18,938 nucleotides of DNA, taken from NCBI GenBank assembly GCA_023262365.1, contig JALRBF010000302.1:1-18938 (forward strand), in the 5' to 3' direction. Source of the DNA: Burkholderiaceae bacterium. Lineage in GTDB: Bacteria; Pseudomonadota; Gammaproteobacteria; Burkholderiales; Burkholderiaceae_C. The stretch's first letter is position 1, and each line of letters begins with the position of its first letter. Under the pieces are notes generated by a model. It made no database searches and was not told where the DNA came from. It saw nothing but the letters and a program-made list of their open reading frames with translations. Positions 1 to 18,938 of this stretch are shown here, piece after piece. A program made the position numbers and the translations under genes.

Positions 1-1314
1 CAGCAGCAGCGTCAGCGCAAAACCCAGTCCCGTAATGTTCAGCACCCCAATCACAAAGCCTGCCGCCGCCACGATCAGTATCAAGCTCACCATGGCCTGG
101 GCAGTTTCGCGCACCACGCCCAGCAGGCTCGACCAAGTTAAGCGTTGATCCCCGTATCCGCGCATCCAGCCAAGAACCAACACCAGCATGGCCGCAACGA
201 TTGCCGCATCTTCAGGGTCCATGTCCCAAACGAACAAACAAGCCAAGAGCATGGCAATAGGAAACAAAAAGTGCCATCCTTTTTGCAACACCTCGCCCAA
301 ACTGAGTCGCGCATCAACTGCCTGTACGATGTTGTCGCGCCCGGCAATCAGGTCCACCTGGGCAAACACACTTACGTAGTACAGCACGGCGGGTATCAGG
401 GCTGCCGCGGCAACGGCACTGTAGGGCACCTCCAAAAACTCGGCCATTAAAAATGCCGCTGCCCCCATGATGGGCGGCGTTAGCTGTCCGCCGGTTGAGG
501 CCACCGCCTCCACCGCACCGGCATCCTGGCGCGAATAGCCTCCGCGCTGCATCAACGGGATGGTGATCACGCCAGTGGTTACCACATTCGATACTGCACT
601 ACCCGATATCGAGCCAAACAGTGCGGAGCCGACCACAGCAATCTTGGCGCTACCACCGCGCGATTTACCTGTCACGGCCATCGCCAAATCAGTCAAAAAC
701 GCCCCACCGCCCGCGGCGAACAGCAACTGTCCGAAAAATACAAACAACACCACAATCACGGTGCCGACTGCCAAGGGTGAACCAAATACGGCACTGGGAT
801 CAAAGCCAACGTACTGCACCAACTCTTTAATTGACACCGCATTGCCTACGAGTCGCCCTGGCACTTGGTCGGCAACAAACGCGTAAGCAAAAAACCCAGC
901 CACGATTGCGCTCAGCATGTTGCCAGCAAGGCGTTGGATGCCGTGCATGACCGTTACCACGACCACAGTGCCAACCGCTGCGATCTGCCACGGTCGGTAG
1001 GATTGTTCTTTGAGTAACCAAGCGAAACTCCACGCCGTGTACATCAACGTGCCAAAAACCACCAGCGCAGCCAGCCCATACACCCCCTGCTGCCAGGCGG
1101 CACGGGGCCCGGCCATGACCTGAGACAAATAAAACAGCGTGAGTGCTAAACCCAACTGAAACGCCATGTACTGCTGCTTTAGCACCGCATAGCCCAAGCG
1201 TAATGGCAACTCAAGGTTCCAGGCAACACAAGCAGCCACCATGGCCACCGAAAGCACCATCATTGCAGCATTACACAAGCGGCTGACCCGATTGCTACCT
1301 ATCGTTTGATCCAT
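1..1314 (-). CDS. Fused TRAP transporter permease, TAXI type (second copy, partial)
   Basis: This is the first 438 residues of a fused DctQ-DctM TRAP permease; the reading frame is open to the window edge, so the C-terminal part is missing. Members of this family use the sodium gradient to import substrates delivered by a periplasmic TAXI binding protein. The protein is a series of hydrophobic segments. It carries the family's conserved central block: GSALFGSISGSAVSNVVTTG (about 229-248), then EAVASTGGQLTPPIMGAAAF (about 269-288). The ATG at 1314 is preceded by GGTGGAG almost touching the start and GAGGTG further up, so the ribosome site is imperfect. It lies 102 bases after a homologous complete permease on the same strand and is probably co-transcribed with it. 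Family assignment is firm; substrate is unknown. Confidence 0.9.
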   Translation of the reverse strand, partial: MDQTIGSNRVSRLCNAAMMVLSVAMVAACVAWNLELPLRLGYAVLKQQYMAFQLGLALTLFYLSQVMAGPRAAWQQGVYGLAALVVFGTLMYTAWSFAWLLKEQSYRPWQIAAVGTVVVVTVMHGIQRLAGNMLSAIVAGFFAYAFVADQVPGRLVGNAVSIKELVQYVGFDPSAVFGSPLAVGTVIVVLFVFFGQLLFAAGGGAFLTDLAMAVTGKSRGGSAKIAVVGSALFGSISGSAVSNVVTTGVITIPLMQRGGYSRQDAGAVEAVASTGGQLTPPIMGAAAFLMAEFLEVPYSAVAAAALIPAVLYYVSVFAQVDLIAGRDNIVQAVDARLSLGEVLQKGWHFLFPIAMLLACLFVWDMDPEDAAIVAAMLVLVLGWMRGYGDQRLTWSSLLGVVRETAQAMVSLILIVAAAGFVIGVLNITGLGFALTLLL

Positions 1315-1345
1315 GCTCCACCAAAAAAACACCTCAAATATTCAG

Positions 1346-1389
1346 GGCCTGCCAGGCCACTTACGGTCATCTTTCAGTCCTAAGACCGT
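1346..1389. repeat. Two small inverted repeats between the tandem TRAP permeases
   Basis: The 102-base gap between the two permeases contains ACGGTC/GACCGT (1363-1368 and 1384-1389, 15-base spacer). Next to it is GGCCT-GCC-AGGCC (1346-1358, 3-base loop). In the minus-strand transcript both could fold. The second is followed only distantly by a T-run, so it is not a classical terminator. They could moderate expression of the downstream permease; this is inference. Confidence 0.3.
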
Positions 1390-1416
1390 CGCAAAAGAAC
1401 TGGTCTACAAAGCCGT

Positions 1417-3174
1417 CTAAACCAACACCAACGCCAGCCCCCCCAAAGCCGCGGCCCCACGCAGCCACACCGTCATGGGTGCAAGCAACCCATACGACAA
1501 CAAGCCCAGCCCGGTAGCCATTTGCAGCAGCGCGACAGCCGCGGCCACAGGCTGACTCCACCAATCAATGAGTGCCGGATGCACCACCATGCCAACGGGC
1601 ACGACGTACAAGCCAATGCCCAGCGCCATGGCGCTCAACGCCACCCGCAGCCAATGCTCCCCCACCATGCCCGCGGCAATAAACACCGCACCACACACCG
1701 GCGGCGTAATGGTAGAGAGCAGGGCAAACCAAAACACAAACAAATGCACTTGCAGCGGCTGCAGCCCCAACTGCATCAGCGCCGGCCCCGCCACTGAAAC
1801 ACAAATGACATACGCCGCCGTGGTGGGCACCTCCATGCCCAGCACCAAGCACGCCACCGCTGTGAGCAGCAGCGACAACGCCAGCGACCCATTGGCCCCG
1901 GACAAAATCATGGACGTGATTTTTACGCCCAAACCCGTAATGGCCAGCACCCCCACCACGATGGAGGCGCACAAAATAATGCAGCCAATCGTTGCCACCT
2001 GCTGCCCCGAGCCGCGCAAAGCGGCGGCCACGCGTTGCCCGAGTTTGGCGCGGCTTACCCGCCCCTCGTTGTCCCACCCCAGCAGCACCGCCGCGGCCAG
2101 CGTGGCAAACGCCGCGGCGTACTCAGGCGTCCAGTGTTGACCAAACATACCCCACAGCAGCGTGGCAAATGGCACCACAAAAAACCCCACCGTCACACCC
2201 AGCATGCGCCGCGTGGGCTGCGCCTCGCTGGGCAACGCCGCCAGGCACTCGCGCTTGCTCCACGCGTTAATGCCCATCCACACCGTAAAAAAGTACAAAA
2301 ACGCAGGCAACAACGCCGCTGCCATGATGGTGACGTAGGGCGTGGACGTAAGCTCAACCATCACAAAGGCGCCCGCCCCCATCAACGGGGGCATGATTTG
2401 CCCCCCCGACGACGCCACCGCCTCCACCGCAGCGGCAAGCCGCTTGGGGTAGCCCAGGCGCGTCATGGCCGGCAGCGTAATGGCACCGGTCGAGGCCACA
2501 TTGGCCGAGGCCGAACCCGAAATGGAACCAAAAAGTGCCGAGGAAACCACCGACACCTTGGCCGCTCCCCCCACCAGCCGACCTGCCGCGGCCGAGGCCA
2601 CGTTCATGAACCCCTGACCGGCCTCGCCCGCATTAAGAAACGCGCCAAAAATCACAAAAATCGCCACCACCCCAACCGAGATGCCCGTTAAACTCCCCCA
2701 CAGTCCACCTTCGGCAATGGTTAACGTGCCCAAGAAACTCGCCAGCGGCAAACCCGCATGGCCCAGTTCACCGGGTACGTACTGCCCCAACATGCCGTAT
2801 AGCAAGGCAGTCAATGCAATGAGCGGCAGCGGCCAGCCAATCACGCGACGCGCGCCCTCCAAAATCACCACCAACAGTACCCCCGCCACGGCCAACTGCA
2901 GGCTGCCCTCAAGGGCGCCATACTGGTCGCCCAGCGCATTGGCGTGCCACGCCACCCACAGACTGGCAGCCATGCCCAGGCAAGCCAGCAACGCCCCCGT
3001 GCGACGCTGCCACGGTGAGCGCGCCGCGGCCAGGTATATCCAGGGCAAGATGTAAGCCATGTGCAACGGGCGCACCACCAAATTGGGCACCAACCCGTAC
3101 CACACCAGCCCCAAGTGCATGGCCACGCCCAAGGCACCCCACGCCACCCAGGGCAAACCTAGCATGTGGGCCAC
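1417..3174 (-). CDS. Fused TRAP transporter permease, TAXI type (first copy, complete)
   Basis: This 585-residue inner-membrane protein combines the small (DctQ-like) and large (DctM-like) subunits of a TRAP transporter. The N-terminal part has the family's RPLHMAY motif (about 35-41). The core has SSALFGSISGSASANVASTG (211-230) and EAVASSGGQIMPPLMGAGAF (251-270). The second half has GMEVPTTAAYVI and STITPPVCGAVFIAAG, typical of the DctM fold. It follows the TAXI binding-protein gene after 40 bases and precedes a homologous second permease. The start is uncertain: GTG at 3174 gives the longest form and an ATG at 3165 gives three residues fewer. Neither has a clear Shine-Dalgarno sequence, and an in-frame stop lies just upstream. 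Many relatives are somewhat longer, with an extra C-terminal domain that is absent here. Confidence 0.92.
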   Translation of the reverse strand: MAHMLGLPWVAWGALGVAMHLGLVWYGLVPNLVVRPLHMAYILPWIYLAAARSPWQRRTGALLACLGMAASLWVAWHANALGDQYGALEGSLQLAVAGVLLVVILEGARRVIGWPLPLIALTALLYGMLGQYVPGELGHAGLPLASFLGTLTIAEGGLWGSLTGISVGVVAIFVIFGAFLNAGEAGQGFMNVASAAAGRLVGGAAKVSVVSSALFGSISGSASANVASTGAITLPAMTRLGYPKRLAAAVEAVASSGGQIMPPLMGAGAFVMVELTSTPYVTIMAAALLPAFLYFFTVWMGINAWSKRECLAALPSEAQPTRRMLGVTVGFFVVPFATLLWGMFGQHWTPEYAAAFATLAAAVLLGWDNEGRVSRAKLGQRVAAALRGSGQQVATIGCIILCASIVVGVLAITGLGVKITSMILSGANGSLALSLLLTAVACLVLGMEVPTTAAYVICVSVAGPALMQLGLQPLQVHLFVFWFALLSTITPPVCGAVFIAAGMVGEHWLRVALSAMALGIGLYVVPVGMVVHPALIDWWSQPVAAAVALLQMATGLGLLSYGLLAPMTVWLRGAAALGGLALVLV

Positions 3175-3214
3175 TGGGGTGTGCGGTTTGCTTTAGGCCT
3201 TGCCGCCGGCGCCG

Positions 3215-4171
3215 TCACATCTGCTCAGGCCGTAGGGGCATGCCCTGTTCTTTGTAAAAACGCACGGCGCCGGGGTGAATTTTCGTGCCAATGTTTTGCA
3301 GCAGCTCAGGGGTTACGCCGCGCCACCACGCCGCCTGCGCACTCATGGCCTGGCGCTGGGCCCAAAACGTCTTGGTTAGCGTGTAGGCTACCTCGTTGCT
3401 CATGGCCGTGGTGGCATACGCCACCACCGGCAGCGTGGTGGTTTGCACCGCCGCTGTTTGCCCCGCGTACGTACCCGCTGGTATCGTCAGCGCGTTGCGC
3501 TTGGTGGCGGCAATTTGCTCAGCCGTTAAGCCCACCACCACCACCGGGGTAGAAGCCGCGGCCTCCACCACGTTGGGGGCTGGCCATGAGCCAGCGGTGA
3601 CAAAGGCGTCAATCTGCCCGTTTTTTAGCGCCGCAACAGCGTTTGACAACTCCACATCCACCAGTTTGGTCTGGTCTTTTACGCCAAACAGCTCCAGGTA
3701 CTTAGCCCCCTCACGTGCGCCAAACGAGCCTTTGCCCAGCAACACCGACTTGCCCGCCAAATCGGCCCAGTTCGCCACGCCACGGTCGGCACGCGCCACC
3801 AAATGCATGGTCAGAGCCGGTATAGGAAACAACGCACGAATCTCGGCGAACTTGGGGTCGGCCTTGTCTTTGAATGGGCCTTTGCCCTCTTGCGCCATGG
3901 CAATCAGCGCTGGAGGCGTGGTAAACACGTAATCACCCCCGCGCACGCGCGTCTCCATCACGTTTTGCGTTGAGCCTTGGCTTTCCTCTACCGTAACTGA
4001 AATGTTGCCCGCTGTGCCCGTCTTCATGGCCTCGGCGATTTCTACACCCATTTGGTAATAAGACGAGCCCGCCTTTGCCGATTTGTACGTAACCCGGGTT
4101 TGGGCCTGCACCCCAAAAGCGGTGGTCATTGCCACGGCAAGCCAGGTCATGCGTTTGATGAACTGCGTCAT
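3215..4171 (-). CDS. TAXI-family TRAP transporter solute-binding protein
   Basis: This is a periplasmic binding protein of the TAXI family (318 residues), which captures substrate and hands it to a fused TRAP permease. The N-terminus is a signal peptide: charged MTQFIKR, a hydrophobic stretch, and a likely cleavage after VQA (residue 23). The mature part opens with the family signature YKSAKAGSSYYQMGVEIAEAM, and a conserved ESQGSTQN block follows. The reading frame is open further upstream, but the ATG at 4171 is chosen because AAAGGAG lies 9 bases before it and a signal peptide begins there. The upstream extension would run into the P450 gene. The permease gene starts 40 bases after the stop, so the two form one importer. 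The substrate cannot be predicted; characterised TAXI proteins bind small carboxylates or amino acids. Confidence 0.93.
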   Translation of the reverse strand: MTQFIKRMTWLAVAMTTAFGVQAQTRVTYKSAKAGSSYYQMGVEIAEAMKTGTAGNISVTVEESQGSTQNVMETRVRGGDYVFTTPPALIAMAQEGKGPFKDKADPKFAEIRALFPIPALTMHLVARADRGVANWADLAGKSVLLGKGSFGAREGAKYLELFGVKDQTKLVDVELSNAVAALKNGQIDAFVTAGSWPAPNVVEAAASTPVVVVGLTAEQIAATKRNALTIPAGTYAGQTAAVQTTTLPVVAYATTAMSNEVAYTLTKTFWAQRQAMSAQAAWWRGVTPELLQNIGTKIHPGAVRFYKEQGMPLRPEQM

Positions 4172-4259
4172 GTCACCAGTCTCCTTTAGTTGGTTTGTGT
4201 TTGAGCGCCGATATGTTAACTGCCAAATCGTGTCCTCGGGCAAGTGCAGCCGGACGACC

Positions 4260-5495: not shown

Positions 5496-5616
5496 GACTT
5501 CAGGGGCAGAAGTTTTTCTCTAACCCCCTAATCGTGTCATATCTCGTGAAAAATCCCAAGAACACGGGTTCCTTCAATAGCTGGTGATTTAGTAGGCACC
5601 TTAACCGACTTGTCAC

Positions 5617-6732
5617 CTACGCCGCAAACCGATTTGGACTGACTTGGTTCGGGTTGAAACCCATGTCTAAGATAGCGCTCGGTATTGCGCCCTCCCGGAT
5701 TAAGGCCGATCCGACTTGCGCCAAAGCTGGGGCCATTTGAATACCATAGCCACCCTGCCCCGCGAACCAAAAAAATCCGTCCACACGGTCGTCAAAACCG
5801 CAGACTGGTTGTTTATCAGCCGCAAAAGTTCGCAGCCCCGCCCATTTGCTTCGAATTTTCGAGACCTTCAGCTCGAATGCGGCTTGAATGCGCTCGACTG
5901 TCAAAGCAACATCCACCTCCTCCGGTTGAGCGTCGCAAGCAACAGAGGGCGTCTCGTCAGCTGGCGAAATCAACAAACGACCGGCGTCCGGGCGAAGGTA
6001 AAAGTCTTCCTCACAGTCAATCACAGCGGGAAAAGATTGACTATCCGTACCCGAGGGTGAATCGATGGTCATCGCGGTGCGACGCTTGGGCGTCAGGGGG
6101 ATGGGCGAGGCACCCACCAATTTGCCTATATGACTTGCCCATGCCCCCGCTGCATTAACCACCACATCGGCAAAAAACTCCTGGGACGCAGTTGACACCA
6201 ACCAACCATTACCTTTTCTCTGAATTTGCTCGACCCGGGCGTTTGGCCAGAATGAGCCATTTGCAAGCTTAAAACGCTTCAAATACCCCTGATGCAAAGC
6301 ACTTACATCCATGTCCATGGCGCCCACGTCTAACATCGCCCCGCTCACATAGTCCTCGCGCAGAATAGAGCACCTCATCAGCGCCTCTTCGCGACTGATA
6401 AGCGTGACGTCAGGATTCGGACCCATGTCTGCATACAGTCTCTGCAACGATGCCTCTTGACCCTTTGTGGCGATGAACATGGCTCCTCGGGGCAGCAACA
6501 CCTGATTTAGCCAAAAAGTAGGATTCAGCCGGGAAAAAAAAGGGAGCGAGGCCTTAGTGAGAACTCTCACCACCTGCGGCCCGTACGAGGGCGCATACAA
6601 GGCAGCCGAGCGCCCAGTGGTGTGGTAACCCGGCTGGCTTTCCATTTCAACCAAGTCAACGGACACCGACCCAGCCAACTCTGCGGCTATTGACGCCCCT
6701 GCGATGCCTGCGCCTATCACCACAATCTTCAT
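5617..6732 (-). CDS. FAD-dependent amine/amino-acid oxidoreductase, DauA-like (DAO family)
   Basis: This 371-residue flavoenzyme of the D-amino-acid oxidase superfamily most resembles D-arginine dehydrogenase DauA. Shared blocks are the dinucleotide motif GAGIAG (7-12), PGYHTTGRSAA (34-44), ALHQGYL (145-151), VVNAAGAW (191-198), PKRR (215-218), FYLRPDAG (244-251), WAGLRTFAAD (297-306) and GQGGYGIQ (325-332). It probably dehydrogenates a C-N bond, with electrons passed to a quinone or oxygen. Against DauA as I remember it, the catalytic-site Tyr (Y50), R218, Y245 and R301 are kept. The His and Glu that shape the arginine pocket appear to be L45 and A84, so D-arginine is an unlikely substrate. 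The start is well supported by AGGAGGAGG five bases before the ATG. It lies 26 bases after the EamA gene and is probably co-transcribed with it. Confidence 0.9.
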   Translation of the reverse strand: MKIVVIGAGIAGASIAAELAGSVSVDLVEMESQPGYHTTGRSAALYAPSYGPQVVRVLTKASLPFFSRLNPTFWLNQVLLPRGAMFIATKGQEASLQRLYADMGPNPDVTLISREEALMRCSILREDYVSGAMLDVGAMDMDVSALHQGYLKRFKLANGSFWPNARVEQIQRKGNGWLVSTASQEFFADVVVNAAGAWASHIGKLVGASPIPLTPKRRTAMTIDSPSGTDSQSFPAVIDCEEDFYLRPDAGRLLISPADETPSVACDAQPEEVDVALTVERIQAAFELKVSKIRSKWAGLRTFAADKQPVCGFDDRVDGFFWFAGQGGYGIQMAPALAQVGSALIREGAIPSAILDMGFNPNQVSPNRFAA

Positions 6733-6758
6733 ATCTGCCTCCTCCTAACCCGCGCGGT

Positions 6759-7661
6759 TCAAGTGTTCTTATCGGGTGAAGTGCCACGCCCAATCATCGT
6801 TCTCGGGTCGAAGCCAGTGGTCAACGCGGTGCCTAACAACACCAAAGCCCCCCCACTGAGGGTGCTCCATCCTATGGGCTCACCCAAAAACCAGGCCCCC
6901 CACAAGGTCGCAAAGGCTGGGGTGAGAAGTGTCACCGTCAACGCCGAGGTGGCGCCAAACTCGTCAATCAGTCGAAAGTAAATTAGATAGGCCACGCCGC
7001 TGCACAAGACGCCGAGCAAAACAACCGAAAGCACCACGGACAATGACAGCGCCTCGCTGGGCATTGGCGCCACGCCCGCCAGTGGCAACAGAAAGATACA
7101 GGCGCCCCACATGCCGCCATGCGCATTGGCAAACGCACCAACTTTGGGCGCATACCTTAAATAGTTGCTCGCCACCCCATAACAAAACGGTGCGGCCAAG
7201 CCAGCGGCCAACGCCCAGCCCATACTCGCCGAGGTCATCAAAGGGCCCTGCCCCACCAGCCAGCCCACCCCCGCCAAGCCCAGCAGCATACCCATCCACT
7301 TAACCGATGGCGTTTGCACCTTAAACCACACCGCTGAAATTAAAGCCGCCCAAATGGGGGCCGTTGCATTCAAAATCGACAGCAACGACGCCGTGAGATC
7401 ACGTGCGGCAAAAGCGAAAAGCAAAAATGGCAGCGCTGAGCTAAAAAAGGCAAGTTTTAGAAAATGTCGCCATTGGCCCGCGATTGGTAAGTTTCTACCC
7501 AGCCACTTTCCCACGATCCACAAGAAGCATGCCGCCAACAAAACACGAAAAAAAATCAACCAAACCGGTCCTAAAACTGGTACCGCAATCCGCATGAACA
7601 GAAATGAGGCGCCCCATATGGCAGAGAGCAAAAGCAGTCGGGCAAAACCAGAGGCGTTCAT
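6759..7661 (-). CDS. EamA/DMT-family transporter (putative metabolite exporter)
   Basis: This is a 300-residue inner-membrane protein of the drug/metabolite transporter superfamily, with two EamA repeats and about ten hydrophobic helices. The first begins LLLLSAIWGASFLFMRIA, and the first repeat ends near SVKWMGMLLGLAGVGWLVG. The second repeat ends with LTPAFATLWGAWFLGEPIGW and a final GGALVLLGTAL helix. Such proteins often export amino acids or small metabolites, but substrates are rarely predictable. The frame is open upstream to 7790. The ATG at 7661 is preferred because it places the first helix at the N-terminus as in the family, whereas the upstream segment is Arg/Gln-rich and atypical. 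Its ribosome site (GAGAG, about 12 bases away) is weak. It is the first gene of the leftward group and diverges from the SDR gene. Confidence 0.88.
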   Translation of the reverse strand: MNASGFARLLLLSAIWGASFLFMRIAVPVLGPVWLIFFRVLLAACFLWIVGKWLGRNLPIAGQWRHFLKLAFFSSALPFLLFAFAARDLTASLLSILNATAPIWAALISAVWFKVQTPSVKWMGMLLGLAGVGWLVGQGPLMTSASMGWALAAGLAAPFCYGVASNYLRYAPKVGAFANAHGGMWGACIFLLPLAGVAPMPSEALSLSVVLSVVLLGVLCSGVAYLIYFRLIDEFGATSALTVTLLTPAFATLWGAWFLGEPIGWSTLSGGALVLLGTALTTGFDPRTMIGRGTSPDKNT

Positions 7662-7693
7662 ACGACTCGCGATTCTCTCAGAAGTTGGTAAAG

Positions 7694-7776
7694 GCAATTG
7701 GCGATTCGCTTGCGTGCCGTCGCGCAATCGCAATTGCGACCGAGCCACCGGCCCCGTGCTTTGCTGGGCTCGGTCG
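7694..7776. promoter_or_regulatory. Palindrome-rich divergent region between eamA-like and SDR genes
   Basis: The 218-base divergent gap (7662-7879) contains several inverted repeats. The strongest is a perfect 10-base pair of arms, CGACCGAGCC (7737-7746) and GGCTCGGTCG (7767-7776), with a 20-base spacer. Overlapping its left end is the palindrome CGCAATTGCG (7729-7738). GCAATTG at 7694-7700 is the reverse complement of CAATTGC at 7731-7737, and GCGATTCGC lies at 7701-7709. This looks like a regulator-binding region for the divergent promoters. I could not find convincing -35/-10 boxes, so the promoters remain unplaced. Confidence 0.45.
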
Positions 7777-7879
7777 GACGCCACCCGCACCAGGCCAACG
7801 CGCCCTATGATGCGCGTTCGGGCCCCACATGGTGACGCGTTGGGGTTGGATTGACATCACCGTCAGGAGGCACCCGGTC

Positions 7880-8620: not shown

Positions 8621-8621
8621 A

Positions 8622-8654
8622 GCCCAGAGGTTGGGCAGGGTTAGGGGTATACCC
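8622..8654. repeat. Hairpin after the SDR stop and GGGTATACCC palindrome
   Basis: Directly after the SDR stop codon is GCCCA-gaggt-TGGGC (8622-8636), a short hairpin without a T-run. It is followed by the perfect 10-base palindrome GGGTATACCC (8645-8654), about 20 bases upstream of the candidate -35 box of the hyuA promoter. The palindrome could be an upstream regulator site; this is inference. Confidence 0.35.
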
Positions 8655-8673
8655 GTGAGGGTAGGACTTGGCA

Positions 8674-8703: not shown

Positions 8704-8709
8704 GAATTT

Positions 8710-8733: not shown

Positions 8734-8756
8734 GCCCCCTGACCAGGAGAGTGATT

Positions 8757-10835: not shown

Positions 10836-12759
10836 ACCCCACACACCCAATCCCCGCCATGATGCGGTGGTGACCGAGATCATCCGCAATGGCATGGTAG
10901 CCGCCACCGAGGAGATGAAGTCGAACCTTATGCGCACCGCCTACAACATGATTATTTACGAAGCGTTGGACTTTACCGTGGGCTTGTTTGACCGACAGGG
11001 CAACACAATATCTATTGGCATTGGGTTACCCATGTTTATTCGAGGCATGAGCAACACAGTCAAGCAAATGATTACTGATTGCGGGTACGCCAACATGGCC
11101 CAAGGCGATGTGCTGCTTACCAATGACGCGTACATAACCGGCAGTCACCTCAACCACATGACATTTGTGGTGCCCATATTTTTTGAAGGCGAAATACAAG
11201 GCTTTTCGGCCTGCATGGCGCACTGGCAAGATGTAGGTGGCACGCTTGACGGCATGACGCTGGATATTTACTCCGAGGGGCTACAAATGCCCATTGTTAA
11301 GGTGTATCGGCAAGGCAATCCCAATCAGGACATATTTCGGATCATTGAGATGAACGTGCGTATTCCAGAGCGCGCGATGGGTGACTTGCGCGCGCAAATT
11401 GCCACTGTTAAAACGGGCGAAAAGCGGTTTTTGCAAATGCTCACCAAATACGGTAAAGACACGGTGCTGGCCGCCGTTGAGCAAATATTCAACCAAAGCG
11501 ATGCCGCCTCTCGCGCCGCCCTGCAAGCCATGCCTGACGGCGAGTACGAAGCCGAATCATTTTTAGACGATGACGGGGTCAACCTAGGTCAGCGCATTCC
11601 GATCCGCGTTAAGGTTAAGGTGCTCGGCGATCAAATGACGATTGACCTCTCGGGCGTGAGCGAACAGGTTAAAGGCTTTTACAATTCTGGCCAAGCCGCC
11701 GGCATTGCCTGCGCACAGGTTGCCTTTAAGTGCTTGGTGGCACCCACCGAACTGCCCATCAACGACGGCTGTTTTCGCGCGTTAACCGTGATTTTGCCGG
11801 AGGGTAAAGTGATCAACGCCACCCGCCCTGCCCCCATGCGCTGGTGGATGACGTACCCCATGACGGTGGTGGATACGGTGTTTCGCGCACTGGCCCCAGC
11901 CATTCCCGACAAGGTGGTGGCCGCGCACCACGCCGATTTGTGCATAGCCTCGGTGCACGGCCGCCAGCCCAAGGACGACCGGCTATTTTTGTATCTGGGC
12001 GGGCTCATCGGTGGGGGCTGGGGCGCCAAGCACAACGAAGACGGCATGAGCGCCACCATTGCCATCAACGACGGCGACACGCACAACGGCCCGTCAGAGC
12101 AAGTAGAGGCCAAGTACCCACTGCTGGTGCAGCGCTACGCACTGCGCGAAGATTCAGGCGGGGCAGGCACATTTCGCGGGGGGCTTGGCAATGAGCAGGT
12201 TATTCTTGTGCTCTCCGAGATCATGTTCAACACCCAAATGGAGCGAGTCGAGTGCCGGCCGTGGGGCCTTTTTGGTGGGCTATCGGCCATGGGCAACGAG
12301 GTGGCGCTGCAACGCGCCGGACAGGATGAAGTGGTATACACCACTGGCAAAGTATTTTCGCAAATGCTTAAGAAGGGAGACACCTGGACGCTTCGCTCAG
12401 GTGGCGGCGGTGGGTACGGAAAGCCTACCGAGCGTAGCATTGAGCGGGTGCAACAAGACGTGGTCAACGGCTATGTGTCCCTGCAAGCGGCACGCCACCA
12501 GTACGGCGTGGTTATTGACCCCGCCACCCAACAAGCCGACCGCGCGGCCACGGCACAGCTACGCCAACAACTGCGACGCCAAGGGCTGCCTGCCGACCAG
12601 CCCTACACCAGCCCCGCGCGCCTGCTGCAGGCACTGCAAAACCCGGCCAAATCGCGTATGCGCTTGGCCCACGGCAGCACCGAAGTATCGGCCCAAGCCC
12701 AAGCCTGGCACGAGCAAGCCCGCGCCCAAGGGCTTTTGGCCAACCGGTGCTGCAGCTAA
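10822..12759 (+). CDS. hyuB: Hydantoinase/oxoprolinase family subunit B (HyuB-like)
   Basis: This 645-residue partner of HyuA carries the second catalytic site of the complex. Family landmarks are NDAYITGSHLNH (101-112), AHWQDVGG (133-140), GGGWGAKHNEDG (397-408), NGPSEQVE (422-429), DSGGAGTFRGGLG (444-456) and the glycine-rich GGGGGYG (527-533). In acetone carboxylase I recall a metal bound by His-x-x-Asp and a His 25 residues after the first. Here the matching positions are H109, H112 and H134, so the Asp is replaced by His. About 80 residues after the usual family end (near 566) form a Gln/Ala/Arg-rich extension. The ATG overlaps the end of hyuA and has GAGG six bases upstream. The stop shares a base with the iclR start. 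Probable substrate class is a cyclic amide, hydantoin or ketone. Confidence 0.92.
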   Translation: MTTTKPHTPNPRHDAVVTEIIRNGMVAATEEMKSNLMRTAYNMIIYEALDFTVGLFDRQGNTISIGIGLPMFIRGMSNTVKQMITDCGYANMAQGDVLLTNDAYITGSHLNHMTFVVPIFFEGEIQGFSACMAHWQDVGGTLDGMTLDIYSEGLQMPIVKVYRQGNPNQDIFRIIEMNVRIPERAMGDLRAQIATVKTGEKRFLQMLTKYGKDTVLAAVEQIFNQSDAASRAALQAMPDGEYEAESFLDDDGVNLGQRIPIRVKVKVLGDQMTIDLSGVSEQVKGFYNSGQAAGIACAQVAFKCLVAPTELPINDGCFRALTVILPEGKVINATRPAPMRWWMTYPMTVVDTVFRALAPAIPDKVVAAHHADLCIASVHGRQPKDDRLFLYLGGLIGGGWGAKHNEDGMSATIAINDGDTHNGPSEQVEAKYPLLVQRYALREDSGGAGTFRGGLGNEQVILVLSEIMFNTQMERVECRPWGLFGGLSAMGNEVALQRAGQDEVVYTTGKVFSQMLKKGDTWTLRSGGGGGYGKPTERSIERVQQDVVNGYVSLQAARHQYGVVIDPATQQADRAATAQLRQQLRRQGLPADQPYTSPARLLQALQNPAKSRMRLAHGSTEVSAQAQAWHEQARAQGLLANRCCS

Positions 12760-13610
12760 TGGCCAACGACACTCAGAGCCCCAAAAAACGGGCGGCCAAG
12801 GCCCCCACCGTGACGGGTGGTGTGTTGTCGGTGCGACGCAGCCTGCAGCTACTTAAGCTGATGTGCGAGGGACAGGCCTATTGGTCGCTGGCAGACTTAA
12901 GCCGCCATTTGGGAGTAAACAAGGCCATTGCGCGGCGCTTGGTGGATGAACTGTGCGCCGCGGGATTTGTGTATCGGGACGACCTCAGCGGCCACTACGT
13001 GATGACGTACAAGCTCAGCAACTTGGGGCTGCGCAAGTTGGCACAAACGCGCGTACTCGACCAAACCAGTGGCACGCTGCGCGAGCTAGCCAATGAAACC
13101 GGCGAATTGGTGCGCCTGGGAGTGGTGGAGTTTGACCAGCGCGTCACTTGGGTGCTGGCGTTTGTGGGCGCACGCCGCACCTTACACATTGACCCCAACT
13201 ACCAACTCAGCTTGCAGCTCAATACCCATGCCGCAGGCAAGGCGTGGCTGTCTACCCTTAGCCCGGCAAGGGCGTGGGAGGTGCTACAAGCCACTGGCAT
13301 TGAGCAATGCACACCTCACTCCAAAACCACCCGCCAAGCCATTGAGGCCGATTTAGCCCAGGCACGCGAACGAGGGTTTGCCCTAAGCTACGAAGAAAAT
13401 GAACTCCACGTAGGGGCCATTGCTGCACCCATTACCGTGCGCCAGCCCTCGGGGCTGGTGGCGTGCGTGGGCGTGGTCAGCGTGGCGGCGCCGACCTCGC
13501 GTATGTCACCCAGCGACCTGGTGCAGCTGGCCCCCTCGCTGCTGGGTGCCGTGGCGCGTTTGAGCGACATGTGGCCAATTGGCGAATTGAACCAACCCAC
13601 GCGCCCCTGA
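12759..13610 (+). CDS. IclR-family transcriptional regulator (hyuAB-linked)
   Basis: This is a 283-residue regulator with an N-terminal winged helix-turn-helix (about 22-85, with LADLSRHLGVNKAIARRLVD as the DNA-reading part). A C-terminal ligand-binding domain contains the family motif NTHAAGKAWLS (155-165). The first about 20 residues are Lys/Ala-rich and precede the fold. The ATG at 12759 overlaps the hyuB stop (TAATG), indicating translational coupling; a start four codons earlier is possible but has no better ribosome site. Being co-transcribed with hyuAB, it probably senses the substrate or a product of that pathway and controls its own operon. The inverted repeat at 8710-8726 is the best candidate target in the window. 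That link is inference. Family assignment is firm. Confidence 0.93.
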   Translation: MANDTQSPKKRAAKAPTVTGGVLSVRRSLQLLKLMCEGQAYWSLADLSRHLGVNKAIARRLVDELCAAGFVYRDDLSGHYVMTYKLSNLGLRKLAQTRVLDQTSGTLRELANETGELVRLGVVEFDQRVTWVLAFVGARRTLHIDPNYQLSLQLNTHAAGKAWLSTLSPARAWEVLQATGIEQCTPHSKTTRQAIEADLAQARERGFALSYEENELHVGAIAAPITVRQPSGLVACVGVVSVAAPTSRMSPSDLVQLAPSLLGAVARLSDMWPIGELNQPTRP

Positions 13611-13658
13611 TCAATTTGGCACTTATGCAGGTTGCTCTGCTGGCGGGCTTTCACTTCT

Positions 13659-15209
13659 TTAGCCGCAGCAGTTGTGATGCGAGGCAGTAGGCGGCGTCAC
13701 GCCGCTGTGGTCACAGCACCCCCCGCTCCAAAACCGAGCTCCCTCGCCGCTGCAGTACTTACCATCGGCCTGCACCATTTTCATGAACAACGGGTGGTAG
13801 TTGCGGCAAATGTCCAACTCGCTCTTAACCCACTTGAGCGGGTCAGCGGCGTAGTGAGCGCGGTAGTCGCCCGCCATGTTCAGCCCGGGCACGGCGGGGT
13901 TCCACGATTCATCCAGCCACAGGTCGGGGTCGCCGTACTTTTGCGCAATTTTGCGAATATCGGGGTCATCCAAGGCCAACAAGCGTCCCTGTCGTATCAC
14001 CCAGTCGGTGCCTTGTGACGTTTCGGTTGTGTAGTCGGGAAAATACAGGTGCAGGTGCCAGTGCCCCACGGGCAGGTTGCTACGGGCGGCCTTGCGCTCG
14101 TCCATTGACGAGATGATGGTGCCAAAGCCCATGTGAATCACCCCGGAGCGCACGCGCTCGTACAGGCAGTTCACAAAGCCCGAGGGAAAGTCTTTGCGCG
14201 GGCGATGAATGTGCGGGTTGGTGCCGATAGAGGCCTCCCACCAGTACATCAGGCCTTTACCGGGCATGCCGGGGTACTGCAAGTGGTCGGTTTCTTCTTT
14301 TAGGCGTCGCAGCTTCTCGCCAAATTCACCGCCGGCGTTGATTTCGGTAATCTTTGCGTTCTCTACCTTAAGCTGCGTCCAGTCGCACGGGGCAATATGG
14401 TTGGTGGTGCCGGCAATCACGCCGCAGCCATCTTCCATGCCTTCTAAAAATACCCAAGGGCGTCCAGTAATGTGCCCGGGCAAGTAAGTGGCACCGAACT
14501 TGGCGTTACCCTGCCAAGTTTGGTCAACCAAGCGCGACGCGTAAAGGTTTCGGCCTTTTTCCCAGTACCCGTCGTGATTGGTAAACGAAATATCGGTTCC
14601 CTCGGGGTCGGTAATTCGCACCTGCTTGGCCAGCCTAACCCGGTCCCAGGTCCAGCGGTCAATGGCGGTTAGCAGCTCAGCGGGCATAGCGTGCGCGGGC
14701 GAGGCCAAAATCTCGGGCGTAATAAACGGCATGCGCTGAATCTTAACGAATCGGTCGGTTAGAACCGGGCCACCGTAGCCCATCAAAATCTTGTCATACG
14801 CTTGCTTGCTGGCTATGGCCTCCCATTCGTCCATCCACTGCGCCAACTCTTTGGTGCGGAACAGGTAGTACGCTACCTCGTCGGCACCCACCCATTGCGG
14901 CACCTGGCCGCGATCGATGTACTTCACATCAAACTTAACCTTGTACTTGGTTAAGATTTTTTTGCACGCCTCAATCACCATGTCGCTGTGCCAGTTGTCC
15001 ACGCGCAGCAGCACCCGCTCGCCTTCTTTTAAGTCCCAGCAGGCGTTAAGCCCATGGTTGTATGGGCGACTGGCCACATGCTCCAAATACGGCAGCAGCT
15101 GCTCGGCGCGGGTGATTTCAACAAACGGCGGGCAGCGCGGCGGGCGCGTTGGGTGCAGCGGGCCATCACGCCACATCGGCACATCGGGGTGCAACACGTC
15201 ATGGCTCAC
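13659..15209 (-). CDS. M29 aminopeptidase/NicX-like metalloenzyme with Cys-rich tail
   Basis: This 516-residue protein resembles the M29 fold (aminopeptidase T; also 2,5-dihydroxypyridine dioxygenase NicX), though similarity is moderate. Candidate metal-site blocks are LPGHITGRP (243-251), EASIGTNP (E325-P332), SGVIHMGFG (H359) and GHWHLHLYF (H383, H385, H387). Classical M29 enzymes have Glu in the first block and His-x-Asp in the last; here both positions look like His. It is longer than typical relatives (about 350-420). It ends in an unusual Cys/His-rich tail, with C486, C498-C499, H501, H511-H512 and C514-C515. The start is GTG at 15209, with AAGGAG six bases upstream; the frame's earlier ATG would lie inside dctM. 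It is the last gene of the dctPQM operon, 34 bases after dctM, so it probably acts on the imported compound. Peptidase, hydrolase or ring-cleaving dioxygenase are all open. Confidence 0.7.
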   Translation of the reverse strand: MSHDVLHPDVPMWRDGPLHPTRPPRCPPFVEITRAEQLLPYLEHVASRPYNHGLNACWDLKEGERVLLRVDNWHSDMVIEACKKILTKYKVKFDVKYIDRGQVPQWVGADEVAYYLFRTKELAQWMDEWEAIASKQAYDKILMGYGGPVLTDRFVKIQRMPFITPEILASPAHAMPAELLTAIDRWTWDRVRLAKQVRITDPEGTDISFTNHDGYWEKGRNLYASRLVDQTWQGNAKFGATYLPGHITGRPWVFLEGMEDGCGVIAGTTNHIAPCDWTQLKVENAKITEINAGGEFGEKLRRLKEETDHLQYPGMPGKGLMYWWEASIGTNPHIHRPRKDFPSGFVNCLYERVRSGVIHMGFGTIISSMDERKAARSNLPVGHWHLHLYFPDYTTETSQGTDWVIRQGRLLALDDPDIRKIAQKYGDPDLWLDESWNPAVPGLNMAGDYRAHYAADPLKWVKSELDICRNYHPLFMKMVQADGKYCSGEGARFWSGGCCDHSGVTPPTASHHNCCG

Positions 15210-15243
15210 AATCTTCTCCTTTTTAATGGGCAAACATGGCACA

Positions 15244-16584
15244 TCACATGGCCGAGGGCAACCACAGCGACAACGCCGGAAACAGCACGATGGCGGCCAA
15301 CACAAACACCTCGGCGATCAGAAAGAACGAAATGCCACGAAAAATGGTTTCGAGCTGAACCGTTTTTGGCGCAATCGACTTAATAACAAACACATTAAGC
15401 CCAATCGGTGGCGTGACCAAGCCAATTTCAAGTAGCTTAATCACCACCACGCCAAACCAAATCAACGACAGGTTGTAGGCCTCAACCACGGGCAGCACAA
15501 TGGGCAAGGTGAGTAGGATGATGCCTATGGAGTCCAGAAACATGCCCAGCACCAAGTACAACGCAATAATGAACAGCATCACCAAGGCCAGCGAATAGCC
15601 ACCGTGGGTCAACCACTCGACAAAATTGGCTGACATGCCGGTAAGCGCAATAAAGCTCACGTACAACTTACCGCCCACGGCAATCAAAAAAATCATGCTC
15701 GACTGAAACACACTTTCCTTGAGTGCCGACACAATGGCTGGCACATTAAGCCGCCGGGTTGCCACACCCAGCAGCAGCGTGAGCGTGGCGCCCACCCCAG
15801 CGGCCTCGGTTGGGGTAAACAACCCGCCATAAATGCCGCCAATGATTGAGACAAAGATAAACACAATGCCCCAGCAGGATCTAACGGCTTGCCACTTTTC
15901 GGCCCACGTGAAGCTCACGTTAGGGATGGGCGCATCGGCCTTACGCAAGGTCGCCCACACGTAAATCACTATCAAATACGCCAGCAGCGAGACCAGCCCG
16001 GGAATCACCGCGGCAATGAACAAGCGCCCAATCGACTGCTCGGCAAACACGCCGTAAAGAATAAACAACACCGAGGGCGGAATCAACGAACCCAGCGTGC
16101 CGCCAATGGCCACCGCCCCTGTGGCCAAGGCTGGGGCATAGCCAAACTTCAGCATCTCGGGTACGGCAATACGCCCCATGGCTGCCGCACACGCAACCGA
16201 TGACCCCGTAATGGCCGAAAAGCCACCACACCCCACCACCGAGGCCATGGCAACGCCGCCACGCAAGCGACCCATCCACAGCCGGGCGGCTTCGTAAATG
16301 TTGCGCGTAAATCCAGCCTCATGGGCCAAGTGCCCCATCAAAATAAACAACGGCACCGTGGCCAGCGAGAAGTTGGTGATGAAGCTAAACGGCGCGTTGG
16401 CCAGTAACGACATGGTGGGTCGCACCGCCGCATCAAACGAAAACTCGGTGCCCGGTCGCCAGGCAAACACAACAAATGTGCCAAGCGTCGCAGACACGCC
16501 AAGCGCTGCGGCGATAGGTGTACGAATCAGCAACAACACAAGGGTCAGAATCAAGGCGCTGACGCCAACATCAACTGGGCTCAT
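15244..16584 (-). CDS. dctM: TRAP transporter large permease (DctM-like)
   Basis: This 446-residue inner-membrane protein is the ion-coupled translocation subunit of a DctPQM TRAP importer. It is almost entirely hydrophobic helices. It carries the family motifs GGFSAITGSSVA, GTLGSLIPPSVLFILYG, GGLFTPTEAAGVGA, GMFLDSIGIILLTLPIVLPV and GLVTPPIGLNVFVIKSI in the expected order, and length is normal. The ATG at 16584 follows the dctQ stop by 9 bases. A Shine-Dalgarno sequence, CAGGAG, overlaps the end of dctQ at a rather long 12-base distance, which suggests coupled translation. It forms one importer with the neighbouring dctP and dctQ and is distinct from the TAXI system at the left end of the window. 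Confidence 0.96.
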   Translation of the reverse strand: MSPVDVGVSALILTLVLLLIRTPIAAALGVSATLGTFVVFAWRPGTEFSFDAAVRPTMSLLANAPFSFITNFSLATVPLFILMGHLAHEAGFTRNIYEAARLWMGRLRGGVAMASVVGCGGFSAITGSSVACAAAMGRIAVPEMLKFGYAPALATGAVAIGGTLGSLIPPSVLFILYGVFAEQSIGRLFIAAVIPGLVSLLAYLIVIYVWATLRKADAPIPNVSFTWAEKWQAVRSCWGIVFIFVSIIGGIYGGLFTPTEAAGVGATLTLLLGVATRRLNVPAIVSALKESVFQSSMIFLIAVGGKLYVSFIALTGMSANFVEWLTHGGYSLALVMLFIIALYLVLGMFLDSIGIILLTLPIVLPVVEAYNLSLIWFGVVVIKLLEIGLVTPPIGLNVFVIKSIAPKTVQLETIFRGISFFLIAEVFVLAAIVLFPALSLWLPSAM

Positions 16585-16593
16585 GCTGGGCGA

Positions 16594-17070
16594 TTACTCC
16601 TGTGAGGCATGATGCCACGCCTCCTTGATTTGCCGCCCGATACTCAGCACCAGCTCAACCGAAAACGCCACGAACCCCACACAAAACACCGTTTTGGCTG
16701 GCCAGGTGGGTATTTCCAATTCGCCGTCAAGGTAAGCGCCCGAGGTGAACTCGTAAGGCAGCGAAAGCGCCACAGCGTAGCTGATACCACCAAAGAACAG
16801 CAGCATCAATATTTTTCCTAACACGTCAAATACCAAGCGCCAGTGGGGCGGGCACCACTGCGTAGCCACCGTCACGGCAATATGCCCGTTGTCTCGCTCC
16901 ACAATGGCCGCAGGCAAGGCAATCACCCCCACCATCAGCAACCCCACAAGCAGCAAGTCGTCCGGAACGGGCAACAAAAAAAACTCACGCCCCACCATAG
17001 ATAACGTCACAATCCCCGCCATGGCGAGTAAGCACAGCCCAGCCATCGCTTGGAGTGACGACTTGAGCAT
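16594..17070 (-). CDS. dctQ: TRAP transporter small permease (DctQ-like)
   Basis: This 158-residue membrane protein has four predicted helices: about 4-24, 37-58, 82-105 and 126-146. The family feature VERDNGHIAV follows the second helix. It pairs with DctM and helps docking of the binding protein. It lies 40 bases after dctP and 9 before dctM. The ATG at 17070 has an A-rich leader (seven A) but no clear Shine-Dalgarno sequence, so expression may be lower than that of the binding protein, as is common for permease subunits. Sequence of this family is variable; position between dctP and dctM confirms the call. Confidence 0.94.
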   Translation of the reverse strand: MLKSSLQAMAGLCLLAMAGIVTLSMVGREFFLLPVPDDLLLVGLLMVGVIALPAAIVERDNGHIAVTVATQWCPPHWRLVFDVLGKILMLLFFGGISYAVALSLPYEFTSGAYLDGELEIPTWPAKTVFCVGFVAFSVELVLSIGRQIKEAWHHASQE

Positions 17071-17110
17071 GTGCTTTTTTTCTAACGCTTCAGTGGGCCG
17101 TTAACCCTCA

Positions 17111-18181
17111 TCAATCCCAGGGGTGCCCTTTGGTATCTTTGATTTTCTGATACTTGTTAACGAGTGCACGGTAGTCACCCAAAATTTTCTCTCCAGGCAA
17201 GCCCTTGTCGTTGGCTTTGGCCACCCAGTTGGCGGCATCGGCCTCGGCCACCTCAATCAATGCCTTTCGCATGGCCGCCGGGGCGTCGTGCATGGTGATT
17301 TTCTTGCCATCAATCCCAGTGGCCAATTCGGCCTTGGTTTTGGTTCGCGATTCGTACATCACCTTGGCCACATGCTGGGTGTAGTCTTTGCCCAATTGGT
17401 CAAGCATTTTTTGCTGCGCGCCCGGCAGCGAATCGTAGGTGCCCTTGTTCATGGCAATACCAAACGCCAGCGTCTGGCCCATATTCACCTCGGTCATGTG
17501 GTCTGCCACCTCGTACTGCTTGTAAGCCTTGACCACGTAGTAGTAGGTGGTTGAGCCGTCCACCGAGCCGTTGGACAGCGCCTCATACACCTTGGGCTGC
17601 GGCGTGGAGACGGTGGCCGCGCCGTACTTCTTCATGGCCGGGACAAACGCTCCCGTGGCGCGTATTTTTAGGCCTTTTAAATCGTCCAGCGACTTAACGG
17701 CTTTGCCTTTGGTCAAAATTTGAGTCGGGCCCGTGGTGTAGTTGCCAAAGTACCGCAGATTGAATTTGGCCATTTCTTCTAAGGCTTGCGGGTGAGTGGT
17801 CATCAACTCGTAGGTGGCCATCATGCCGACCCACTCGTTGGGAAACTGCAGCGTGTCGGTAACTTCGTACACCACCATGCGCCCAGGCGCGTACACCGGC
17901 ACAATGCTTGCCATATCGGCCACGCCAGCGGAGAGACCTTTGGCCGCGTCTTTTGCGCCAAGCAGCGCACCACCCCACACGATGTCAAGCCCGAGCTTGC
18001 CATCGGAGCGTTTGCGCATTTCGGCATCGAGCCATTTGATGGTGCCAGCCCGGTCGCCTCGATTGGGCCCGAACTCGGCAAAGCGCAGCAGCTTGATGCT
18101 TTGTGCCGCTGCCACGCTCATTGAGCAAAGGCAAAGCGCTGCCACGGATGCCTTGAGTAAGCCTCGCTTAGATGGTTTCAT
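17111..18181 (-). CDS. dctP: TRAP transporter solute-binding protein (DctP-like)
   Basis: This 356-residue periplasmic binding protein captures an organic acid for the DctQM permease. A signal peptide is clear: MKPSKR, a hydrophobic core, and likely cleavage after AAA (residue 26). The mature part has the DctP fold, with KIRATG (172-177). R174 is the conserved arginine that usually binds the substrate carboxylate, so a carboxylated ligand is likely. The frame is open upstream to 18274, but the ATG at 18181 is chosen because AAAAGGAG lies 8 bases before it and the signal peptide starts there. A strong promoter is located 46-74 bases upstream. It is the first gene of dctP-dctQ-dctM-M29-like and diverges from a second IclR regulator, its probable controller. 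Confidence 0.95.
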   Translation of the reverse strand: MKPSKRGLLKASVAALCLCSMSVAAAQSIKLLRFAEFGPNRGDRAGTIKWLDAEMRKRSDGKLGLDIVWGGALLGAKDAAKGLSAGVADMASIVPVYAPGRMVVYEVTDTLQFPNEWVGMMATYELMTTHPQALEEMAKFNLRYFGNYTTGPTQILTKGKAVKSLDDLKGLKIRATGAFVPAMKKYGAATVSTPQPKVYEALSNGSVDGSTTYYYVVKAYKQYEVADHMTEVNMGQTLAFGIAMNKGTYDSLPGAQQKMLDQLGKDYTQHVAKVMYESRTKTKAELATGIDGKKITMHDAPAAMRKALIEVAEADAANWVAKANDKGLPGEKILGDYRALVNKYQKIKDTKGHPWD

Positions 18182-18217
18182 ACCTGAGTCTCCTTTTACA
18201 GTGAGCAAACCTTGTTC

Positions 18218-18246
18218 TTGCCAGAAATTAAATACAGGCTTATGCT
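18218..18246 (+). promoter_or_regulatory. Candidate sigma70 promoter for the second iclR gene
   Basis: On the plus strand TTGCCA (18218-18223) and TATGCT (18241-18246) are separated by 17 bases, matching consensus at 5/6 and 4/6 positions. The start would be near 18253, about 38 bases before the ATG at 18291. The element overlaps the dctP promoter almost completely, so RNA polymerase could occupy only one at a time. Confidence 0.5.
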
Positions 18247-18255
18247 GATTGTCAA
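18227..18255 (-). promoter_or_regulatory. Sigma70 promoter for dctPQM
   Basis: On the minus strand TTGACA (18255-18250) and TTTAAT (18232-18227) are separated by exactly 17 bases, matching consensus at 6/6 and 5/6 positions. Transcription would start near 18220, leaving a leader of about 40 bases that contains the dctP Shine-Dalgarno sequence. This is the best promoter match in the window and it overlaps the promoter of the divergent iclR gene. Confidence 0.75.
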
Positions 18256-18278
18256 CTAACAAAGTAAAGTTCATCAGC
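18244..18278. promoter_or_regulatory. Inverted repeat in the dctP/iclR divergent region, candidate operator
   Basis: GCTGAT (18244-18249) and ATCAGC (18273-18278) are perfect 6-base inverted arms with a 23-base spacer. They flank the dctP -35 box and cover the predicted iclR start. TTGT-N6-ACAA lies between them at 18249-18262. The position suits binding by the adjacent IclR protein, but 6-base arms are not strong evidence on their own. Confidence 0.3.
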
Positions 18279-18290
18279 TGAAGTCATGGC

Positions 18291-18938
18291 ATGAGTGGTT
18301 ACCCCAACCCCCACCCCGCGGCACCCACCACGCGCACCCGCGCCATCGATCGCGCCGCGTTGACACTGTTGCAGTTCTCGCAAGAGTCGCCCCAGCACAC
18401 CATTCGCTCGCTTAGCGAGGCCACGGGCATTGACCTGGCCACGCAGCGGCGCATCGTGCTGACGTTGTGCCACAGCGGTTTTTTACGCCGCAGCGTGGAC
18501 CAGCAGGTGTTTGAGGTGGGTGAGTCCCTGGTGCGCATTGCCGCGGCCTACATTCGGCCCATGGGCATTGAGGCCATTGCGCGCCCCATGATTACGGAGC
18601 TTGCCCGTCACTACGGGGTCACCACATTTATTTCGCGCCTTGAAAACCAACGCGCCACCTGTGCGCTGCGCGTGGATGGCAACCCCTCGATACACGTGCG
18701 CTGGTGGGAGCCAGGCGCCACCATGAGCTTTAACAAAGGCGCAGCCCCCAAGTTAATTTTGGCCTACAGCAATAACAAAAAAGGCGCGATTACGAGCCCC
18801 TCGCCCCATGCCTTACACATGCGAACACAAAAAAAAGGGGTCGATGCAGCCGAGCTGATGACAATTCGCCAGCGTGGCCGCGCCTACGCCGAAGACGACG
18901 TGGCAGTGGGCTTGGCGGCGCTGGCCGTGCCCATCTTC
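18291..18938 (+). CDS. IclR-family transcriptional regulator (dctP-linked, partial)
   Basis: These are the first 216 residues of a second IclR regulator; the frame is open at the window end, so roughly the last 50 residues are missing. The winged helix-turn-helix spans about residues 17-75 (IRSLSEATGIDLATQRRIVL). The effector domain follows, with the late family motif RGRAYAEDDVAVGLAALAVPI at the right place. The central motif, normally P-x-H-x-T-A-x-G-K-A, is degenerate here (PGATMSFNKGAAPKL), so effector binding may differ. The ATG at 18291 is preceded by a two-codon reading frame, ATG GCA TGA, whose stop overlaps it. Divergent placement 109 bases from dctP suggests control of dctPQM and of itself. 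It is not a close copy of the other IclR in this window. Confidence 0.9.
   Translation, partial: MSGYPNPHPAAPTTRTRAIDRAALTLLQFSQESPQHTIRSLSEATGIDLATQRRIVLTLCHSGFLRRSVDQQVFEVGESLVRIAAAYIRPMGIEAIARPMITELARHYGVTTFISRLENQRATCALRVDGNPSIHVRWWEPGATMSFNKGAAPKLILAYSNNKKGAITSPSPHALHMRTQKKGVDAAELMTIRQRGRAYAEDDVAVGLAALAVPIF

Follow-up and report, generated by a model that had tools for sequence, protein, structure and literature searches.

The 18,938-nucleotide stretch analyzed here (the window, which is the whole of contig JALRBF010000302.1 of a Burkholderiaceae bacterium) encodes a member of an unnamed enzyme family, the M29-like family, in tandem with a DctPQM-type TRAP importer and divergent from a gene for an IclR-family regulator (IclR2) that is cut by the window end. 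We found that these genes are part of a conserved unit whose last three genes, encoding a LeuC-like protein, a LeuD-like protein and a lyase of the isocitrate lyase family, lie past the window on another contig of the same genome (C103). The unit reads M29-like–DctMQP in one direction and IclR2–LeuC-like–LeuD-like–lyase in the other, and we think it somewhat probable that it imports a carboxylate-bearing compound and degrades it via a maleate-type acid. Judged by the neighbors of its genes in other genomes, the window combines several catabolic units that assort independently, as a mosaic and not as one pathway.

The conserved unit continues past the right edge of the window

The host genome is a 1.9-Mb draft of 376 contigs (90.7% complete). 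When we searched it with the LeuC-like and lyase proteins of marine loci, both were found on C103, with 67% and 64% identity. The two contigs share an exact 138-bp overlap, between the right end of the window and the start of C103 read in reverse. The IclR2 frame runs on in C103 to its end and is followed by genes for a LeuC-like protein of 420 amino acids (aa), a LeuD-like protein of 168 aa and a lyase of 320 aa. At the opposite edge, a search of the same genome with the leftmost 150 bp as query gave no match besides the window itself.

The LeuC-like protein of C103 has an aconitase domain (PF00330, E = 2e-60) and shows the GSCASGR and CDYCFG stretches with the cluster cysteines; among the relatives in the 14 loci that carry the complete set of partner genes (see below), CDYCFG is present in 14/14 and the GSCASGR pattern in 12/14. 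The lyase belongs to the isocitrate lyase/phosphoenolpyruvate (PEP) mutase superfamily (PF13714, E = 2e-40), and the LeuD-like protein has no Pfam match. The small subunit of aconitase-family hydratases usually carries a GSSREH-type loop, in place of which the C103 LeuD-like protein and its relatives in all 14 loci have NFGYGHPHYPPM. Similarly, the catalytic loop of methylisocitrate lyase is KRCGH, and the lyases of all 14 modules have KRCPA, KRCAA or KKCAA there (KRCPAV in C103). Since the active-site loops of both partners are altered, the substrate of the module is likely an unusual acid. KRCGH itself is present solely in separate lyase copies of two loci, L033 and L042, where a second DctM gene adjoins the KRCGH-type lyase near the M29-like gene, apart from the module's own lyase (L033 6478-8637; L042 3688-5847).

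Conservation of the unit across M29-like loci

We searched the window proteins against the best 80 of 126 confirmed M29-like loci, with a threshold of ≥30% identity over half the query; the counts rest on simple open reading frame (ORF) calls and BLAST thresholds. The importer genes were the most frequent companions (DctM in 27/80 loci, DctQ and DctP in 26 each), followed by IclR2 (10), the short-chain dehydrogenase (SDR; 7), HyuA (4) and TRAP-fused permease 1 (3). Permease 2, HyuB and the cytochrome P450 were each found in one locus, and the TAXI protein, the DauA-like enzyme, the EamA-family exporter and the regulator IclR1 in 0/80. The M29-like, LeuC, LeuD and lyase genes occur together in 14 of the 80 loci (≥45% identity), thirteen of which also carry DctP and DctM, the exception being L050, a contig of 8.6 kb. 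Sulfitobacter brevis DSM 11443 (L044) has the genes in the same order, with lyase-LeuD-LeuC-IclR running one way and DctP-DctQ-DctM-M29-like the other, and its LeuC, LeuD and lyase are 66%, 60% and 65% identical to those of C103.

A clustered importer part lies within 4 kb of the M29-like gene in 52 of the 78 loci with a called gene (L020 and L038 were left out of this count and of the Cys/His-tail count below). These importers are of TRAP, tripartite tricarboxylate (TTT; TctC), Fbp-like ABC and NMT1-type ABC types, and their labels require at least 18 changes on a 77-row tree, against a mean of 41.1 for shuffled labels; the M29-like enzyme therefore retains an importer even as the kind of importer varies. 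On the same tree, the window copy groups with L015 and L016 (support 99/91) inside an eight-row set (99/94) of the window, six alphaproteobacterial rows and one Halomonadaceae row, apart from the Burkholderiales rows. The tree has an arbitrary root and the window branch is long (0.72), so the exact placement is unsure. Because the window copy sits among mostly alphaproteobacterial rows, the tree suggests horizontal transfer of the M29-like gene from Alphaproteobacteria; a plasmid search for the gene gave no match. Near the M29-like gene, six Firmicute loci (L069, L071, L073, L075, L077 and L084) encode a small membrane protein that ends in a His-rich stretch and whose L075 copy has no Pfam match; L069, L071 and L077 additionally carry a phosphotriesterase-family cluster.

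The M29-like protein is a probable distant relative of M29 aminopeptidases

The M29-like protein has 267 relatives at E ≤ 1e-3, and the best 120 of these span Proteobacteria, Firmicutes and Actinobacteria plus one fungal record (P0104, Exophiala mesophila, 55% identical to the M29-like enzyme). Another relative, P0092, has a DctM Pfam domain and is apparently an enzyme-permease fusion or a mis-called frame. At cut-offs of E ≤ 10 for Pfam and E ≤ 0.001 for NCBIfam, the window protein matched no family, nor did it match a solved structure (the best PDB row, with an E of 0.17, looks like a chance match). The PF02073 (M29) profile matched in 0/30 genomes, the window's own included, and the control matched in 4/14. 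The absent PF02073 match and the changed motif residues described below rule out membership in the Pfam M29 family.

The M29 family (aminopeptidases S/T/II) has the catalytic motif EEHYHD (PMC7023490). In a joint alignment, the Glu and two His residues of the M29 metal site align with E325, H359 and H385 of the window protein in 13/13 true M29 proteins, the Asp of the M29 HxD pair corresponds to His387, and the first M29 Glu falls in a gapped region. The HxD Asp position is His in 113 of the 115 aligned family members, the window included; H246 and H271 are invariant in the 115, 114 members have H359, and H383, H385 and H387 are each conserved in 113. The family profile also matched, over nearly the whole paralogue length, a family of short paralogues (cluster 55, 351-353 aa) encoded near the M29-like gene in the gammaproteobacterial loci L060, L063 and L065 (probability 96.8, E = 2e-10), and this paralogue family matched true M29 (probability 55, E = 1e-4); the short M29/NicX-type paralogue of L060 has no Pfam match. 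In addition, 75/79 M29-like proteins, the window copy included, have at least three Cys/His in their last 20 residues, versus 40/1206 other ORFs; of the four proteins below this count, one is truncated.

From these features, the M29-like protein seems remotely related to M29 and is probably a metalloenzyme. The label 'M29-like', proposed in a preliminary description of this DNA, thus holds solely as distant homology, and family membership in Pfam or NCBIfam was not borne out. Compared with M29, the M29-like family has HxH in place of HxD, is longer, ends in the Cys/His-rich tail and, unlike M29, is found beside importers and, in the 14 loci, beside acid-processing enzymes. NicX is a probable relative of M29. 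It is a 2,5-dihydroxypyridine dioxygenase with the Fe(II) ligands His265, Ser302, His318 and Asp320 (PMC7910607). This metal enzyme, whose substrate is a ring compound, has an HxD pair that resembles that of M29, whereas the HxD Asp is His in the M29-like family, a comparison made through the M29 pair. A peptidase family (M29) and a ring-cleaving dioxygenase (NicX) could bracket the possible activities of the M29-like enzyme.

HyuAB is a separate unit with a changed metal ligand

By family, the HyuA and HyuB proteins of the window would form a separate ATP-dependent unit acting on lactam- or imide-type compounds. The caprolactamase CapAB (6YRA) has an ATP-site Asp pair (D11/D295) in CapA and an Asp-His-Asp-His metal tetrad that includes Asp102 in CapB (PMC8453981). 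The window HyuAB resembles CapAB and the hydantoinase HyuAB in both subunits and in the ATP-site Asp pair: D15 and D290 of HyuA align with D11 and D295. The metal site differs, with D50-H109-H112-H134 in HyuB where the caprolactamase has Asp-His-Asp-His, so that a His stands at the position of Asp102. A C-terminal extension is a further difference, and the caprolactamase equivalogs NF050156 and NF050157 score 512 and 315 bits, below the cut-off of 1000. The stretch GSHLNH, which holds the changed ligand, is present in all of the best 120 of 5632 HyuB entries, the window's own included (one, P0170, is N-terminally short), and HxxD is found in remoter HyuB proteins of relatives. From these alignments, the window HyuB is a member of a distinct clade with a changed metal ligand.

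Of 399 genomes of the order, 13 (the window's own included) encode HyuB relatives at E ≤ 1e-180, with 58-71% identity, and a 96%-identical fragment (P0139) comes from a Burkholderiaceae bacterium. Fifteen HyuAB loci from outside the genus were compared: 12 have a gene of the TTT binding-protein cluster, 7 a LysR-cluster gene and at least 5 a fumarylacetoacetate hydrolase, recognized from its cluster or its annotation; one locus (L119) has DctP in place of the TTT protein and an IclR gene in the cluster of the window's IclR1. None of these 15 loci has a gene that clustered, by simple ORF calls, with the window's M29-like, P450, DauA-like, EamA or TAXI genes, and among the loci compared HyuAB showed no conserved tie to the P450, DauA-like, EamA or SDR genes.

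One genome of the same genus, G003, is the only relative seen with HyuAB adjoining the M29-like gene. Its HyuAB (94-95% identical) is convergent with the end of the M29-like gene about 110 bp away, and IclR1, which separates these two genes in the window, is absent from this gap (L115 167-276). TRAP-fused permease 1 (88%) is divergent from HyuA and followed by an NMT1_3-family (TAXI-like) binding protein, and the TAXI protein and fused permease 2 are on another contig, where the TAXI gene is split over two frames (L116 5071-5995), which is either real or an assembly error. The 10.2-kb contig with HyuAB ends inside the M29-like gene and has no match for the P450, DauA-like, EamA or IclR1 proteins; its sole SDR is 30% identical. 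Searches of G003 found no close DctP (best 30%), LeuC (34%) or lyase (35%). The HyuAB and M29-like units are therefore neighbors that stay together within this lineage.

Proposed function of the unit and alternatives

In the pathway that we propose, IclR2 would sense the compound and DctPQM would import it. The M29-like enzyme, for which we infer a bound metal, would open or hydrolyze the compound to yield a maleate-type acid, probably an alkyl-substituted one; we assign this conversion to one step because no other protein of the module is a candidate for the first enzyme. The LeuCD-like hydratase would then add water to give a malate-type acid, from which the lyase would release a 2-oxoacid and a carboxylate that enter central metabolism. 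The gene order, the contig overlap, the conservation in 14/80 loci and the altered metal-site and loop residues were observed directly; the order of the reactions, the chemistry of the M29-like enzyme and the substrate class are predictions. The nearest known logic is that of the 2,3-dimethylmaleate hydratase and dimethylmalate lyase pair of nicotinate fermentation, which also joins an aconitase-type two-subunit hydratase to a lyase of the isocitrate lyase family. A LeuD relative (L015) matches TIGR02087 (LeuD/DmdB) just below the cut-off and a lyase relative (L018) matches the 2,3-dimethylmalate lyase 3fa3 with an E of 4e-25. The module differs from the dimethylmaleate pair in its altered LeuD and lyase loops, in its first enzyme and in a lyase that is nearer to other chains, the L018 protein being closer to PEP phosphomutase and methylisocitrate lyase (E = 2e-38 and 3e-38).

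Several observations weigh against the proposed route. The hydratase-lyase set is missing from the retrieved DNA of 66/80 loci, some of which are short contigs, and therefore the route is not universal for the M29-like enzyme; since other M29-like loci contain genes of the enolase superfamily, for aconitase X or of the phosphotriesterase family, the product of the enzyme may feed different routes. No clustered importer lies within 4 kb in 26/78 loci, 24 of the 77 tree rows are labelled 'other', and the IclR2 relatives in the M29-like loci are just 27-34% identical. The direct profile comparison with the 13 true M29 proteins was weak (hhalign probability 6), and a literature search found no biochemical data for any member of the family. 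As for the contig junction, the 138-bp sequence occurs, among the retrieved loci, solely in the window contig and C103, and the remaining genome was not searched for copies.

We weighed other readings against these data. That the M29-like protein is a true metallo-aminopeptidase, which would trim an imported peptide or amino-acid conjugate whose side chain the hydratase and lyase then degrade, agrees with the distant M29 homology and the three aligned ligands, and yet it is unlikely given the missing Pfam match, the unaligned first Glu, the His at the HxD Asp position and the acid-processing nature of the partner enzymes. It is improbable, too, that all blocks of the window serve one pathway for one N-containing heterocycle, from import through P450 oxidation to ring or amide opening. 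G003 indeed retains HyuAB convergent with the M29-like gene and permease 1 beside HyuA, with TAXI and permease 2 elsewhere, but its contig has no counterparts of four of the genes and the SDR there is remote, the M29-like loci have next to none of the TAXI, DauA-like, EamA, P450 and HyuB genes, and the HyuAB clade elsewhere is mostly beside other importers. From this neighbor content (G003, the HyuAB loci and the 80 M29-like loci), we rejected a single pathway spanning the window; the mosaic structure follows because the window blocks seldom accompany the M29-like gene or HyuAB in other loci.

We give still less weight to action of the M29-like enzyme on a metal chelate or metallophore, which is very improbable. 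The Cys/His-rich tail would fit it, as would a TonB receptor cluster in three loci (directly beside the gene in L065) and the Fbp-like ABC importers near by, but the importers seen are mostly of TRAP, TTT or NMT1 types, the tail may merely load the enzyme's own metal, and the hydratase and lyase partners are more in keeping with carbon catabolism. A more specific version of the proposed route, based on the chemistry of the partner families, is a long shot: the module would process the dialkyl-maleimide/maleate debris of tetrapyrroles (of the methylethylmaleimide or hematinic-acid type, from chlorophyll and haem). TRAP would import the acid, the M29-like metalloenzyme would open the imide ring, the altered LeuCD would hydrate the dialkylmaleate and the altered lyase would release a 2-oxoacid and a short fatty acid, and HyuAB of the same lineage could take imides of this class as well. 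If true, such a route would fill a gap in the marine carbon and nitrogen cycle.

Gene content of the window

The preliminary description had the gene content right: the window has 15 genes in long open frames (Table 1), 14 of which have Pfam matches, the M29-like protein being the exception. It also proposed two unrelated TRAP systems. Two importer types are indeed present, in the form of a tandem pair of fused permeases with a single TAXI protein (TIGR02122 and TIGR02123 above cut-off) and one DctPQM set (PF03480, PF04290 and PF06808 all above cut-off). A catabolic island with importers was confirmed, and the suggested common substrate for all six enzymes found no support in the neighbor counts of the 80 M29-like and 15 HyuAB loci. 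The comparison of HyuB and M29-like neighborhoods that it called for showed the M29-like gene together with the HyuAB, P450, DauA-like, EamA, SDR and TAXI genes seldom or not at all, apart from HyuAB beside it in G003. Among the literature titles and abstract openings listed, there was no paper on this gene set.

Inspection of start codons indicated that DctP more likely begins at the ATG at 18181 (356 aa); some searches were run with the frame 17111-18214. Some TAXI searches used a query one residue shorter than the tabulated frame. We take the FGFGQHICLG stretch of the P450 to be the haem-ligand motif.

Table 1 Genes in the window
Feature	Coordinates	Strand	Evidence and remarks
TRAP-fused permease 1	1..1332	-	Cut at contig end; TIGR02123 E 9e-102; full-length 88% relative beside HyuAB in G003
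TRAP-fused permease 2	1417..3174	-	TIGR02123 E 7e-133; paired with TAXI gene in G003, G006, G009
TAXI-family TRAP solute-binding protein	3215..4171	-	TIGR02122 E 6e-47; start is the ATG of MTQFIK
Cytochrome P450	4260..5495	-	PF00067 E 7.5e-27; FGFGQHICLG stretch in translation
DauA-like FAD dehydrogenase	5617..6732	-	PF01266 E 2e-54; best solved relative DauA 3nyc, E 3e-80
EamA-family exporter	6759..7790	-	PF00892 E 1e-35; start codon provisional
Short-chain dehydrogenase (SDR)	7829..8620	+	PF13561 E 2e-58
HyuA, ATP-binding subunit	8751..10835	+	PF01968 E 1.5e-93; alignment to 6yra_A
HyuB, metal subunit	10822..12759	+	PF02538 E 2e-155; alignment to 6yra_B
IclR1 regulator	12747..13610	+	PF01614 E 2e-22
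M29-like enzyme, unnamed family, core gene of the conserved unit	13659..15209	-	GTG start assumed; 267 relatives at E ≤ 1e-3
DctM large TRAP permease	15244..16584	-	PF06808 E 3e-82; up to 70% identical in M29-like loci
DctQ small TRAP permease	16594..17070	-	PF04290 E 1e-17
DctP solute-binding protein	17111..18274	-	PF03480 E 2e-29; up to 69% identical in M29-like loci
IclR2 regulator	18291..18938	+	PF01614 E 7e-9; cut by window end, completed on C103 (locus L168)

Implications

The HyuB clade with its changed metal ligand provides a second concrete lead. Foremost, a widespread family that, through its window member, has no Pfam, NCBIfam or structural match gains a genomic role beside importers and a hydratase-lyase pair, and the M29-like enzyme would represent a testable new catabolic step, probably one that yields a maleate-type acid.

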